Assembly: GCF_900206265.1 (NCBI RefSeq)
Contig: NZ_LT907782.1
Span: 1 to 64,000, forward strand
Origin: Nitrosomonas ureae
GTDB lineage: Bacteria > Pseudomonadota > Gammaproteobacteria > Burkholderiales > Nitrosomonadaceae
Length of the DNA: 64,000 bases
Direction: 5' to 3'
Part shown: positions 26,601 through 45,446 of the stretch, piece after piece
How the letters are laid out: the number at the start of each line of letters is the position of its first letter
Numbering within the stretch: position 1 is the stretch's first letter
Position numbers and translations under genes: made by a program
The notes under the pieces: model-generated
Seen by the model: only the letters and a program-made list of their open reading frames with translations
The model's database searches: none
What the model was told of the DNA's origin: nothing

Positions 26601-27552
26601 ATAAAGATGGACTGGTAAATCTTGCGTCGGAATGCCACCTGGTAGAATTCCTGCAAGATGGTTTTGTGGAAACGCTCGCAAATACCGTTGGTCTGCGGAT
26701 GATTGGCTTTCGTTTTGGTATGCTCAATGTCATTGAGTGCCAAATAGAGCTGATAATCGTGATGTTCCGGTTTACCGCAATATTCAGTACCGCGATCGGT
26801 GTCTTGGTGGTATACAGCTTGGCGGCCGCCCACTTGGAATAAGTGTCGACGAAAGTCTGCTGATAAATCCGTCCCACGCCCTTGAGAGTGCCGACGTAGA
26901 AGGTATCCTGACTACCGAGATACCCAGGATGAGCGGTATCAATCTCGCCATGAGCAACATCATCGTCTTGTTTCTTCTCCAATGCCTGCACCTGTGCTTC
27001 GGTCAGCACCGCTCCGGTCTCGGAGATATGCCTCTCCAAGGCCGATAGACGCTTCTTGACGCGACTCCAGACTTTGTCGCAGCCACACTGAACGAACACC
27101 GGACGGAGAAACAAAGATTCCGCGTTTGCGTAGTTCGTTGGAAACACGAACCTGACCAAAGGCCGGTTGTTCCAGAGCAAAAGCCGTGACCGCTGCTTCC
27201 GTTGCTTCTTCAACACGGTTCTTGATGTTGGGCTTGCGGCGATTTGCATCAATCAGTGCCTCAACACCATCTGCTTCAACGGCAGCTTGATAGCGATAGA
27301 AAGTATCGCGAGAAAACCCATCACCTTGCAGGTGCGCGATACATTGCCAAGCTCGGCTGCTAAATTAAGCTAGCCAATCTTGTGTTTGATGACTTTCTGT
27401 TGAACACTACTCATGGGATTACTCCTTTGCGCTTTCGCGCTTGGTTGATAAAGTTTCTCACCTCTATCAAACCGGGTAATCCTACCCTTTGACAAGACCT
27501 ACTGTCAGATCAAGTCTGAACTACTACACATTATTCCCCTTAATTTTTGTCT

Positions 27553-27770
27553 TTAAGACGCAATCTGGCTGTCAGAGTTACATAACCACCGGCGAGCCAG
27601 AAGCGAGTTGGCAAGCCCAAACAGTGAAAACATCTGAGCGTTATTTTTGGCCATTCCTCTGTAGCGGGTTTTGCGGTGAATGAACAGATTCTTTACAACA
27701 TGAAAGGGATGCTCACCCCCTGGCGCGAATGCCGACTTTTGCATGTTCAAGCTTCTCCATCAGTTTGCCT
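27553..27770 (-). pseudogene. IS5 transposase C-terminal fragment
   Basis: Encodes MEKLEHAKVGIRA-type sequence followed by HPFHVVKNLFIHRKTRYRGM and AKNNAQMFSLFGLANSLLAR, nearly identical to the C-terminus of the transposase at 11049-12063. It belongs to the IS5 copy interrupted by IS481 and is truncated at 27770. Confidence 0.85.
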
Positions 27771-40971: not shown

Positions 40972-41616
40972 ATGTCTGATGATTTCCGGCAAGCCTTCAT
41001 TCAATTCGCTATTGCGCGCAAAGTATTATGCTTTGGTGAATTTAAAACCAAAGCGGGGCGCATGTCACCGTATTTTTTCAATGCAGGGCTATTTAACGAT
41101 GGTGATGCGCTGCGTAAACTCGGGCAATTTTACGCCAAAGCGATTGTTGCTGCAGCGCTTCCGTTCGACATGCTGTTCGGCCCGGCGTATAAAGGCATTC
41201 CGCTGGCCAGTGCGATTGTCATTGCACTGGCTGAGATGGGACATAACTATCCGTTCTGTTTTAACCGCAAGGAGGCCAAAGATCATGGCGAAGGCGGGGT
41301 GCTGGTCGGTGCACCGCTGAGCGGTCGAGTGCTGATTGTTGATGATGTCATTTCCGCAGGTACTTCGGTGCGTGAATCGGTCGAACTGATTAAGAACTCA
41401 GGCGCAACACCCTCCGGTGTCGTGATTGCGCTCGATCGTATGGAGCGAGGAATGGGAGAACTTTCTGCGGTTCAGGAAGTGCAGCAGATGCATGGTTTTC
41501 CGGTGACTTCAATTATCAATCTGGACGATCTGGTGGAATTTTTGCAGAATCATCGAGAATTCTTGCAGTATCTTCCTGCAGTCGAGCGCTATCGCGCACA
41601 GTATGGGATCAAATAA
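40972..41616 (+). CDS. pyrE: Orotate phosphoribosyltransferase
   Basis: Adds ribose-5-phosphate from PRPP to orotate in pyrimidine synthesis. The PRPP-binding loop [17 protein letters not shown] and the flexible catalytic loop [13 protein letters not shown] are present; [13 protein letters not shown] near the N-terminus is typical. 214 residues. Divergent from xthA. The reverse-transcriptase locus begins 124 bp downstream on the same strand. Confidence 0.96.
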
Positions 41617-41740
41617 TATTCTACGGGCTTATTTTTAAAAAGTAGGTGGGACAATTAAATTGAGAGTATTTTCATGACTGTAAACTTTTGGAATCTAGTT
41701 TTAATTTTTTTGTTTTCTCTTGTGAAATAAAGATTGCAGA

Positions 41741-43684
41741 ATGAGCAAGATTCAAGACGACATTATCAAGATTGCCTATAAGAAATTGAAACAGATGATC
41801 TATTACGAAAAGACTCATCTTTTTCTGCGGAAGCGTCTCGCCGAGTTTGAATGTACAGAAGATTTTGAAGAACGTCTCCGCATAATCGATACAGTTATAA
41901 AAACCAAAGTTCCCACGAAAGAAAAAGCCTTTCAAGATTGGCTAAATGAAATCAATTTTGTGTTGCTGCCCAAAGGAGTGAGCGGAATTGATTCACAGAG
42001 CGAAAAGGGTAAAGGCACCTATGTAACGAACGTGACCAGCCAAGAGAATTACAAAATTGAAAAGGTGAACTACATCTTCGACGGGCCGATTGAGCTACAT
42101 CTCATAGCGGTTCTTTGGTTGATGATTGATGGTTCGGAAATTGATAGTAAGCTGACACGGAATTGTATGGGCTCCCGTCTTCACCCACTTGTCGGGCAGG
42201 ATGAGGATCATTCCGCACAACTCTTCAAAAAGTATCATGAGTTGTATGCCAAATGGCGCGACGATGGTATCAAAAAAGCCCGAGACCTGCTTGTCAACGA
42301 AGAGCAAAGTATCTGCATCATCGCCTTAGATCTTCAGGAATATTATTATCGGGTGCAGATTGACTGGATAAAGCTGCGTACCCAGACTGTAAGGCCAAAT
42401 AAAACAACTGGATTCTATAAGACCGTATTCGCACGAGAAATACTCGGGTCTCAGTTATTTGATTGCATTGAAGCGATTTGCACTGCTTATCGACAGCGAA
42501 TCGCGCCTCAACTAAAAATTACTCATGGCGACATTCCAGATAATGCAACTTGTCTACCTATTGGCCTATGTGCTTCCCCACTGATTGCGAATTGGTATTT
42601 GAAAGAATTCGATGAAGCCATTTTGACCAAAGTTCGTCCTGCTTACTATGGTCGATATGTAGACGACATCCTTCTGGTAGTGACAAGCCAATTCGAGCCA
42701 ACTAACGATCCAATTAGAAGTTTTATGGAAGAGATTCTAGTAAATACTGGGGTCATGCAACATGATGTGAACAATTTACGATATGAGTTGACCGGAACAC
42801 CGGGGTTATTTTTACAGGAGCAGAAGTGTATTCTTCAATTTTTTGATGCTGGTCATTCCATTGCTGGGTTGGAAAAATTCCAGAAGGAGATTGAAGAAAA
42901 TGCAAGTGACTTTGCTATGCTTCCCGTAGAAGGGGACGAAAGCCCGGTTGAGCAGGTTGCTTACGATTTGCTTTATGATGGTTCAGTGAACAAGATTCGA
43001 AGCATCAAAGAGATTGCTGAAAATCGATGGGAGCTTGCTAAGCATCTTTCTAAACAGACACGACTATTTCTGGTGGCAGAAGGACGACTCGATACACAAA
43101 CGAGAAAGGAGCTGTTCCGATTCTTCAAGGGGCGAAATGCGATCGATTATTGGGATATGTGGGAGCGTGTCATTGCGTTCTTGGTGATTGCTGGGAATAA
43201 AAAGACCGTTGACGAATTTTGTAAGGCGATTAGAAGTGAAATAAAAAAGATGTCGTTTTCAAAATTAGATGATGGCAATATCTCAGACCTACTGAGGAGG
43301 GCAATGATGGCGCATCTTGATGTTTCGCTGGAAATGATCCACGCGGTGAGAGATACAGAGACTTCAAAAGACTCAGTACTTGAGCATTGGCGTACTTCGA
43401 ACTTAATTCGCCATCACTTGGTGGCGGTACCACTATTAAATTACACAGAATTTAATGGTGATCTCGCCATACCGGGTTATGTGGCCGATTTCATTCTTGA
43501 TGATCACAAGATCAAATGGAGTCCGCGTTTTGTTCATTTTGATGAGTGTTTGGGATTCAGCGACTCAGGTTATTTTGCGGTCACCGACGGTGATTCGATC
43601 ACGACAGCCAATCAGATTTACGCCAAATTTCATGGGTCAAGCGTTGAAGATGTAATCAGCGAATCTGCAGATGGCGAATTGTAA
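41741..43684 (+). CDS. UG/Abi-type (defence-associated) reverse transcriptase
   Basis: A 647-residue protein with reverse-transcriptase motifs: the metal-binding Asp197 in IIALDLQEYYYR (motif A), the LPIGLCASPLIANWYL block at about 272-287 (motif B), and the catalytic YVDD at 306-309 (motif C, both Asp present). The element NCMGSRLHP before motif A and the long region after the palm (about 350-647) are those of UG/Abi RTs, also called DRT. No maturase, integrase or msr/msd retron-like neighbour is seen. The nitrilase-like gene follows after 8 bp. Nitrilase-linked DRT groups (UG1, UG5) are known; in UG1 the nitrilase is fused, here it is separate. Anti-phage function is inferred. Confidence 0.88.
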   Translation: MSKIQDDIIKIAYKKLKQMIYYEKTHLFLRKRLAEFECTEDFEERLRIIDTVIKTKVPTKEKAFQDWLNEINFVLLPKGVSGIDSQSEKGKGTYVTNVTSQENYKIEKVNYIFDGPIELHLIAVLWLMIDGSEIDSKLTRNCMGSRLHPLVGQDEDHSAQLFKKYHELYAKWRDDGIKKARDLLVNEEQSICIIALDLQEYYYRVQIDWIKLRTQTVRPNKTTGFYKTVFAREILGSQLFDCIEAICTAYRQRIAPQLKITHGDIPDNATCLPIGLCASPLIANWYLKEFDEAILTKVRPAYYGRYVDDILLVVTSQFEPTNDPIRSFMEEILVNTGVMQHDVNNLRYELTGTPGLFLQEQKCILQFFDAGHSIAGLEKFQKEIEENASDFAMLPVEGDESPVEQVAYDLLYDGSVNKIRSIKEIAENRWELAKHLSKQTRLFLVAEGRLDTQTRKELFRFFKGRNAIDYWDMWERVIAFLVIAGNKKTVDEFCKAIRSEIKKMSFSKLDDGNISDLLRRAMMAHLDVSLEMIHAVRDTETSKDSVLEHWRTSNLIRHHLVAVPLLNYTEFNGDLAIPGYVADFILDDHKIKWSPRFVHFDECLGFSDSGYFAVTDGDSITTANQIYAKFHGSSVEDVISESADGEL

Positions 43685-43692
43685 GAGAAGAA

Positions 43693-44637
43693 TTGATGAT
43701 CTATAAGAAAATAAGTATAGGTTTTCATGAGACCGATCTTCATAAAATGCTACGCGTTGCAGTCGGGCATATGGCAGTTAATCCAGAGGATATTGAAAAG
43801 AGTTATTTAGAGACACCCAATACTTCCTTGAAGCGTCTTAAAAAGTTATCACAGTTATTGAACGATGTTCTCAGACATGGTGTTCGTCACCCCGAACAGC
43901 GGATTCACTTGTTGGTTCTACCTGAAGTCTCGGTGCCTCATTCATTTGCCACATTCCTTACCCGCTGGGTACGCGAACATCAAATCGGTATTATTTGCGG
44001 ATTGGAACATTTTGTTCGAAGTGGGGCAGCATGGAATGAATTGCTTGCAGCTTTGCCTTACCGTACACGGAATGGTACTAAGGCATGCGTTCCTATACGA
44101 CGACTAAAAAAACACTATTCTCCTGCCGAAGAGTTCGAATTACTCAATCATGATTTGAAGGTACCCAAGGTCGATTTAAAAAGTAAATACCAGTTATTTC
44201 AGTGGCGAGGCGCCAGCTTCGCAATCTATAACTGCTTCGAGCTTGCGTGCTTAGAAGACAGAGTTCTTTTTAAGGCAAAGGTCGATTTTATCCTATGTTC
44301 GGAGTTCAATCAGGATGTAAATTATTTTTCAAATATCGTGGAGTCGGCTGCACGTGATCTTCATTGCTATGTAATTCAAGTCAATAGCGCTCAATTTGGC
44401 GATTCTCGTGTCGTCAGTCCATCTAAAACTGAAAAGCTCAACCCGCTACGAATCAAAGGTGGTGACAATCAGACCTTTCTTACAATGGAGTTGCCGTTAC
44501 AAAAGTTACGGGCTCATCAATGTAGAGGGTATGGGTTGCAAAAAGAATCAGGAGACTACAAACCGACGCCGCCAGGATTTGATAGTAAACTTGCCAAAGA
44601 GCGTATTAAACTTGGATCGAAGAAGGTATCGCTATGA
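43693..44637 (+). CDS. Nitrilase-superfamily protein partnered with RT
   Basis: A 314-residue carbon-nitrogen hydrolase-like protein. The catalytic triad can be placed: Glu78 in LLVLPEVSVP, Lys139 or Lys140 in RRLKKHYSPAEEFEL, and Cys181 in IYNCFELACL. Thus it appears catalytically intact. The N-terminal 60 residues are extra compared with minimal nitrilases. Encoded 8 bp after the RT in the same direction, so probably co-transcribed and functioning together. Its substrate is not evident. After the TGA stop the same frame stays open for another 46 codons (see findings). Confidence 0.82.
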   Translation: MMIYKKISIGFHETDLHKMLRVAVGHMAVNPEDIEKSYLETPNTSLKRLKKLSQLLNDVLRHGVRHPEQRIHLLVLPEVSVPHSFATFLTRWVREHQIGIICGLEHFVRSGAAWNELLAALPYRTRNGTKACVPIRRLKKHYSPAEEFELLNHDLKVPKVDLKSKYQLFQWRGASFAIYNCFELACLEDRVLFKAKVDFILCSEFNQDVNYFSNIVESAARDLHCYVIQVNSAQFGDSRVVSPSKTEKLNPLRIKGGDNQTFLTMELPLQKLRAHQCRGYGLQKESGDYKPTPPGFDSKLAKERIKLGSKKVSL

Positions 44638-44697
44638 CTTAAAGCACATACCGCCATAGATGATTTTATTGTCCTTAAATCGGCTATAGATCAATAT

Positions 44698-44713
44698 GAG
44701 GGAAAACACCCTC
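44698..44713 (+). terminator. Weak hairpin after the RT-nitrilase operon
   Basis: GAGGG-AAAACA-CCCTC forms a 5-bp stem 61 bases after the nitrilase stop; an ATGAGGG/CCCTCctCAT extension with a bulge lengthens it. No T-tract follows, so termination is only possible. It could also be part of a small structured RNA. Confidence 0.3.
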
Positions 44714-44852
44714 CTCATTCATGTGAGAATATAATAGAATTAAATCTGCCGACTTTGGTCGATAGTGGCCTAGTAATTATCAGATAAATCAGTAATGCTT
44801 TCTACTAAATTCGGAAATTGATAATAATTACATGCTGGCAGGTTTATATTTT

Positions 44853-45446
44853 CTACCCCCCCCAAAAACGATAATTTCCTGTATCCAAATGAACAAAATT
44901 AGACGAGGGATAATAACCGACACCGCCTATTTTCAATGACAACGCGGCACTGCGCAAGTCGGATAATTTACGTCCCGGCAGGCGGATATCGATGGCTTTT
45001 CCATGTGTATGCAGGCTATTTTTGGCGACTCCGCCACTTTGCGCTGCCAGTTTGGCATTAGTGGCAGGAGAACGGTAGGCTGAGATCACATGGAATTCTT
45101 GATGGGTTCTCAATTTGTGTTGTAGCAGATGCAAAAAATCAAACAGCGTAGGATCGATCTTATATCGGTCACCGGTGCGATGGTCACGCAACACTTGGTT
45201 GATGACGCGCATACCTTCTGGAATGTAACGGCCATTGACCCAGAAAGTCGCTCGAGTGCGTTCACCGGTATGCAAATTAAGAAAGCTCAGTTTTTTTTCT
45301 AAAGGTTTTTTGATGGCCGCATGAACGGATGTGGCTGCCATGGGCAGTGCTAACAAAGTACATGTACTCAAGCTGGTTTTTAAAAAATTGCGGCGACTGG
45401 GTTCTGTTTCTGATAAATACGCTTGATCCAGAAATTTTCGTATCAT
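44853..45446 (-). CDS. YcbK/MepK-like murein endopeptidase (DUF882, M15A)
   Basis: A 197-residue exported peptidase with a Tat-type leader (SRRNFLKTSLSTCTLLALPM) and the M15A zinc motif HTHGKAIDIRLP together with a later HLDTGNYRFWGG. In E. coli YcbK (MepK) cleaves 3-3 crosslinks made by L,D-transpeptidases, which fits the LdtD-like gene directly upstream on the same strand (46 bp). Confidence 0.9.
   Translation of the reverse strand: MIRKFLDQAYLSETEPSRRNFLKTSLSTCTLLALPMAATSVHAAIKKPLEKKLSFLNLHTGERTRATFWVNGRYIPEGMRVINQVLRDHRTGDRYKIDPTLFDFLHLLQHKLRTHQEFHVISAYRSPATNAKLAAQSGGVAKNSLHTHGKAIDIRLPGRKLSDLRSAALSLKIGGVGYYPSSNFVHLDTGNYRFWGG

Follow-up and report, generated by a model that had tools for sequence, protein, structure and literature searches.

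A two-gene UG5 reverse transcriptase-nitrilase pair in Nitrosomonas ureae, a probable DRT1-like anti-phage system

The reverse transcriptase and nitrilase genes

We examined a 64,000-nucleotide stretch of the Nitrosomonas ureae genome (contig NZ_LT907782.1, positions 1 to 64,000, hereafter the window) and identified a pair of co-directional genes on the forward strand: a reverse transcriptase (RT) open reading frame (41741-43684, +) that encodes 647 amino acids, followed by a stand-alone nitrilase-family open reading frame (43693-44637, +). The PADLOC model RT_UG5_small matched residues 3-642 of the RT over nearly the full length of the profile (1076.6 bits, E = 0). Second and third came UG5 models again, of RT_UG5-nitrilase (407 and 327 bits); the best other model reached 51 bits, and Drt1a scored 50.9 bits. 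A sequence-only reading of this DNA had assigned the RT to the UG/Abi type, which these matches confirmed and narrowed to UG5. Grouping with retrons or group II introns was ruled against by scores far under the respective cut-offs (retron_St85, 33.1 bits, cut-off 235; group II model, 25.8 bits, cut-off 300). By its profile matches, then, the enzyme is a UG5 RT, that is, a member of class 3 of the UG/Abi RTs, and neither a retron nor a group II RT.

All motifs that had been named in the RT were present: the YVDD motif at residues 306-309 (42656-42667, +), whose D308 and D309 align with D324 and D325 of DRT1; the catalytic Asp197 (codon 42329-42331, +), invariant in 25 aligned rows (20 UG5 RTs and 5 DRT1 homologues); and the NCMGSRLHP and LPIGLCASPL blocks, which begin at residues 141 and 272. 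Identity of the RT to its homologues was 57-58% for five of them and 45% for a sixth. Variation was higher at third codon positions than at the first and second (for example, 0.32 versus 0.11 and 0.06 when the RT genes of the relatives L005 and L006 were compared), indicating that both genes of the pair are under selection. An AlphaFold2 model of the RT had a pLDDT of 50.5, so it was not used for fold search.

The nitrilase is 314 amino acids long when read from TTG 43693 and 313 when read from ATG 43696. The ATG is better spaced behind a GAGAAG sequence at 43685-43690 (judged by eye) and is the likelier start. The 8-bp distance between the genes given by the sequence-only reading thus applies to the TTG start and becomes 11 bp with the ATG; residues below are numbered from the TTG. 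The protein matched the C-terminal part of the PADLOC RT_UG5-nitrilase model (322.4 bits, E = 2e-96). Pfam CN_hydrolase gave a weak match below its cut-off (E = 0.03), and a search of the protein against NCBIfam gave zero matches. Its AlphaFold2 model (pLDDT 81.8) returned the nitrilase-superfamily fold in fold searches; the DRT1 structure, PDB 9yfd, was not among the 50 matches listed in two such searches, a result that is silent on the fold of 9yfd itself.

Glu78 (43924-43926, +), the catalytic Lys139 (44107-44109, +), Glu146 (44128-44130, +), which is the second glutamate of the tetrad and lies seven residues past Lys139, and the catalytic Cys181 (44233-44235, +), which aligns with C1116 of DRT1, were each invariant in nine of nine aligned nitrilases. 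In the DRT1 alignment, an equally spaced Lys-Glu pair lies one column off Lys139 and Glu146 (by eye). Glu78, Lys139, Lys140 and Cys181, as listed earlier, are all in place, and the choice left between the two lysines falls to Lys139, since position 140 is variable (Asn in L007, L010 and L011; Arg in L079). Sequence and structure model agree in assigning the second protein to the nitrilase superfamily, with a predicted Glu-Lys-(Glu)-Cys active site. Near its C-terminus, a KPTPPGF stretch (residues 290-296; 44560-44580, +) is partly invariant: K290, T292, P293, P294 and F296 were found in all nine aligned nitrilases, and the other fused UG5 proteins keep only part of it, as KPxPxG(F/Y). By analogy with DRT1, this stretch may be an active-site lid.

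A variable insertion site behind pyrE

The pair is bordered by pyrE (40972-41616) on one side and by an opposite-strand gene (44853-45446) on the other; gene names such as pyrE were assigned by reading of the sequences. The DNA match to the two nearest relatives breaks off at 41617 and picks up again at 44851, which places the pair inside an insert of about 3.2 kb (41618-44850, no strand assigned), in which 124 bp precede the RT and 213 bp follow the nitrilase. No flanking repeats of a mobile element were seen around the insert, and promoter-like and terminator-like sites were no more numerous than in shuffled sequences. We found 60 pyrE-bearing relatives and fetched the neighbourhoods of 20 of them; the gap between pyrE and the next conserved gene could be bounded in 12, where its length was between about 15 bp and 6.9 kb and it held different cargo. 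The insertion site behind pyrE thus varies within the genus, in agreement with the insertion suggested by the sequence-only reading. In one relative (genome G070), the gap contained a 92-aa SEFIR/TIR-like frame beside a 906-aa frame (by eye), cargo that hints at a recurring defence site.

A search of window positions 30001-56000 with the Hsd proteins of a relative (L007) found no restriction genes. The only Rfam match in the window was psRNA2, a proteobacterial small RNA (27416-27580, +; 132.7 bits). Three matches to ammonia monooxygenase (PF02461) were detected in the same genome, and the host is therefore probably an ammonia oxidiser.

Split and fused forms

This kind of association between RTs and nitrilases has been described before: PMC8934634 records UG1 and UG5 as nitrilase-associated, and PADLOC has a UG5_small model. 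The latter is a 631-position profile of the RT alone, without the following nitrilase. A PADLOC model of RT-associated nitrilases, RTasNitrilase, also matched the window protein (125.4 bits), but only over positions 169-396 of 397 and far less well than the fused UG5 model. Within the 907 positions of RT_UG5-nitrilase, the RT covered 20-616 and the nitrilase 636-899, and the break therefore falls in the linker. The pair corresponds in sequence to the two halves of the fused UG5-nitrilase, cut at the linker, and its identity as a UG5 RT-nitrilase is close to certain. Fused UG5-nitrilases (L010, L011, L078, L080, L081 and L083-L090) have the same two domains and catalytic residues, but in one chain of about 1000-1190 aa. 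Identity of the window pair to the nearest of these (L010 and L011) was 28-35% for the RT and 38-41% for the nitrilase over the matched parts.

A scan of genome contigs seeded with short peptides detected five close relatives (57-59% identity) and two distant fused ones, and a scan of viral contigs with the nitrilase detected one more pair (L079). The viral scan with the RT alignment gave no match, though L079 holds an RT; because a true member was missed, the numbers of loci given here are minimum values. In all seven split loci, including that of N. ureae, the nitrilase gene directly follows the RT gene, so the split pair proposed for the window recurs in relatives. The two frames overlap by 4 bp in five loci and are 4 bp apart in one and 8 bp apart in N. 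ureae; in L009, an alternative start exists 6 bp earlier. The nitrilases of the split relatives were 68-71% identical to the window protein. Split pairs occurred in Verrucomicrobiota, Lentisphaerota, Nitrospirota and Pseudomonadota and on the viral contig, and this spread over four phyla indicates that the cassette has moved widely.

Phylogenetic trees were built for 20 RTs and 20 nitrilases, all of them UG5 (7 split and 13 fused; one broken fused sequence was omitted). The split form made up one clade in each unrooted tree (support 99/100 for the RT and 98/97 for the nitrilase), and in both this clade adjoined the fused Bacillota proteins L010 and L011. The two trees joined L010 and L011 differently and differed in minor branches, and the program warned of long branches. 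Trees without an outgroup fit either a single fission or an ancient pair that was later fused.

Among 369 genomes of the class, a single one had the split form, namely that from which the window comes; the form was found in 0 of 84 other genomes of the genus searched, 6 of which contained the fused form. Neither the RT nor the nitrilase matched phage records, and plasmid records held distant relatives only (2 and 10 records). Elsewhere, a fused UG5 gene in genome G738 (L082) is broken by stops, its longest frame being 594 aa.

Gene neighbourhoods of the relatives

Defence-type genes adjoin four of the seven split loci. Three pairs (L005, L006 and L007) are embedded in type I restriction operons that are related to one another, with an hsdS-type gene on one side and hsdR on the other; HsdM and HsdR of L005 and L006 share 68-84% identity with their L007 counterparts. 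HsdS of L007 gave no Pfam match and was named by its likeness to the L005 and L006 proteins. All three loci show 4-bp overlaps at both ends of the RT gene, with the preceding hsdS-type frame at its start and with the nitrilase frame at its end, so that a non-coding RNA would not fit there. A pPIWI-associated nuclease is also present in L005 and a Schlafen AlbA gene in L006. On the viral contig, two successive CAP12-type TIR genes (PF10137; L079 1963-3836) are located directly upstream of the pair, and a Schlafen-group helicase downstream. For L008 and L009, one neighbour each was compared with Pfam, which gave no match and a Lon protease, respectively, and nothing defence-like. The Hsd proteins of L007 also served as queries against 14 fused loci, of which one had HsdM- and HsdR-like genes and another (L083) an HsdM-like match alone. 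The former is in the same genus as N. ureae (L090, genome G007), and its fused UG5-nitrilase lies behind the two Hsd-like genes.

Similarity to DRT1 and a candidate priming serine

A related protein is DRT1 (UG1), which, according to PMC13275509, makes DNA without a template on its own serine 402, requires the active sites of both RT and nitrilase for defence, and forms idle filaments held by the self-made DNA. Against T4, the phage helicase Dda is reported there to be needed and insufficient alone. The C1116A mutant is described as losing defence while DNA synthesis continues, the DNA is given no further role beyond assembly and perhaps sensing, and what the nitrilase acts on is posed by the authors as a question still to be answered (PMC13275509). 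The same source reports template-free, protein-linked DNA synthesis by purified DRT5S and DRT5L, which are probably UG5-small and UG5-large.

Profiles of the window family found both parts of DRT1 (PDB 9yfd), with E values of 2e-8 and 1.3e-8, and the functionally required D324/D325 and C1116 of DRT1 align with D308/D309 and C181 of the window pair. The likeness thus covers the RT plus nitrilase make-up and these residues, to which the alignment adds S402 and S389. In contrast, sequence similarity to DRT1 is remote (profile E about 1e-8), and DRT1, by definition a one-chain fusion, has 1229 aa with the nitrilase covalently joined to the RT, whereas the window has 961 aa in two chains encoded by two genes, with the nitrilase separate.

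Ser389 of the RT (42905-42907, +) is proposed as the DNA-priming serine. We aligned 20 UG5 RTs (7 split and 13 fused) with 5 DRT1 homologues in four alignment modes. S389 was the only Ser or Thr of the window RT that never varied across the 20 UG5 RTs, and its column was serine in 20/20 UG5 RTs and 5/5 DRT1 homologues; 13 to 15 columns were invariant in all 25 rows, D197, D308 and D309 among them. Other candidate primers, Y408, Y412, S373 and S415, were dropped, all of them being variable in fused UG5 proteins. Inclusion of the 9yfd segment placed S389 opposite S402 in each of the four class 3 alignments. Nine other RTs then served as controls (plasmid RTs with an annotation and further RTs from this work); with them, S389 fell on S402 in two of three alignments, and in the third a glycine two residues earlier took the S402 column. 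Across these three alignments, 1, 4 and 3 of the nine control RTs had serine in the S389 column. Searches for the control families Drt3a and Drt2 gave 0/299 and 1/299 genomes. By eye, six of the nine control RTs had an LG motif between the motif-6 lysine and the thumb helix, and eight had a glycine at this site; the LG motif was absent from all ten class 3 rows inspected.

According to PMC13275509, conservation of S402 does not extend to other class 3 DRTs. The S389-S402 alignment runs against that statement, and we propose S389 as a shared priming serine. The match offers a one-residue test of common DNA priming across class 3 systems.

Proposed mechanism and alternatives

We consider the pair to be a two-gene class 3 UG/Abi system (UG5-small, DRT1-like) that acts against phages by a DRT1-style mechanism, with a probability of roughly 60% (about 55-65% for the mechanism as a whole). 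The anti-phage role is suggested by family membership and by the defence-type genes beside four of seven loci; among the open-licence papers searched, no phage test of a UG5 system was found, and a query on restriction operons with RTs of this type gave one unrelated paper. The RT tag, the effector nitrilase and their control in trans are inferred from the profile matches to DRT1 in both halves. Most likely, the RT would make untemplated, protein-primed DNA and keep the separate effector nitrilase inactive until infection. The RT would start DNA on its own serine, proposed to be S389, without an RNA template and add a short stretch; the DNA-bearing RT would then bind the nitrilase non-covalently and keep it idle within an assembly. 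Replication of the phage would disturb the DNA or the RT-nitrilase assembly, and the freed nitrilase would hydrolyse an essential metabolite, bringing growth of the infected cell to a halt (abortive infection).

Instead of killing, the nitrilase might make a small activator, or it might edit a nucleotide-like signal, the RT or the DNA attached to the RT, with the DNA made by the RT as effector. An effector role of the DNA product itself has been argued for some other DRTs. Such a role would suit a nitrilase that is a separate enzyme and, within the split form, more conserved than the RT (68-71% versus 57-58% identity to the window protein), as well as the undefined substrate of the DRT1 nitrilase. 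However, the DRT1 C1116A mutant loses defence with its DNA synthesis intact, and the DRT1 DNA has no role found past assembly, except perhaps in sensing (both PMC13275509); we regard this alternative as unlikely. The sequence-only reading had considered that the nitrilase may act on RT products. Nothing was found in favour of this, and by analogy with DRT1 as described in PMC13275509, control of the nitrilase by the DNA is the likelier arrangement.

It is quite improbable that the pair is a horizontally moved relic or a metabolic pair outside defence that gives its host no phage protection. The copy does stand alone amid housekeeping genes, and none of the 84 other genomes of the genus has the split form, but neither frame is interrupted, the catalytic residues are all in place, codon-position bias shows selection, and relatives are found within type I restriction operons in three cases and beside TIR genes in one. 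Least credible of all is a class 2-like system, in which an adjacent non-coding RNA would serve as the template, as in DRT2 or DRT9. The 124 bp upstream of the RT and the 213 bp behind the nitrilase could hold an RNA, and an undescribed one would escape Rfam; yet the sole Rfam match of the window lies far from the pair, the overlaps at both ends of the RT frame leave no such space in three of seven loci, and the nearest RT families are class 3.

A more specific version of the DRT1-like mechanism is tentative, and we hold it to be doubtful as a whole: that class 3 DRTs share an ancestral priming serine and a shortened thumb lacking the LG motif, and that in the split form the DNA-bearing RT leashes the nitrilase as a toxin. 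If true, the pair would resemble a toxin-antitoxin-like retron without RNA, the antitoxin being a protein that carries its self-made DNA. The natural separation of the nitrilase also makes it possible to study the presumed effector without the RT, and the RT without the presumed effector.

Additional reverse transcriptases and a Drt1a-like frame

We also observed other genes of this kind. A 298-aa frame in genome G510 (L102; C2:218730-219611) matches only the last 280 positions of Drt1a, and the match contains two stops; it is possibly a remnant or a split DRT1. The genome of the window itself contains a second defence-type RT of 514 aa (C1:2910178-2910669), which matched PADLOC RT_UG14 with 719.2 bits, and a third RT of 339 aa (C1:1154368-1154904), which is followed by a sulfatase-modifying-factor-like gene and reads like part of a diversity-generating retroelement.
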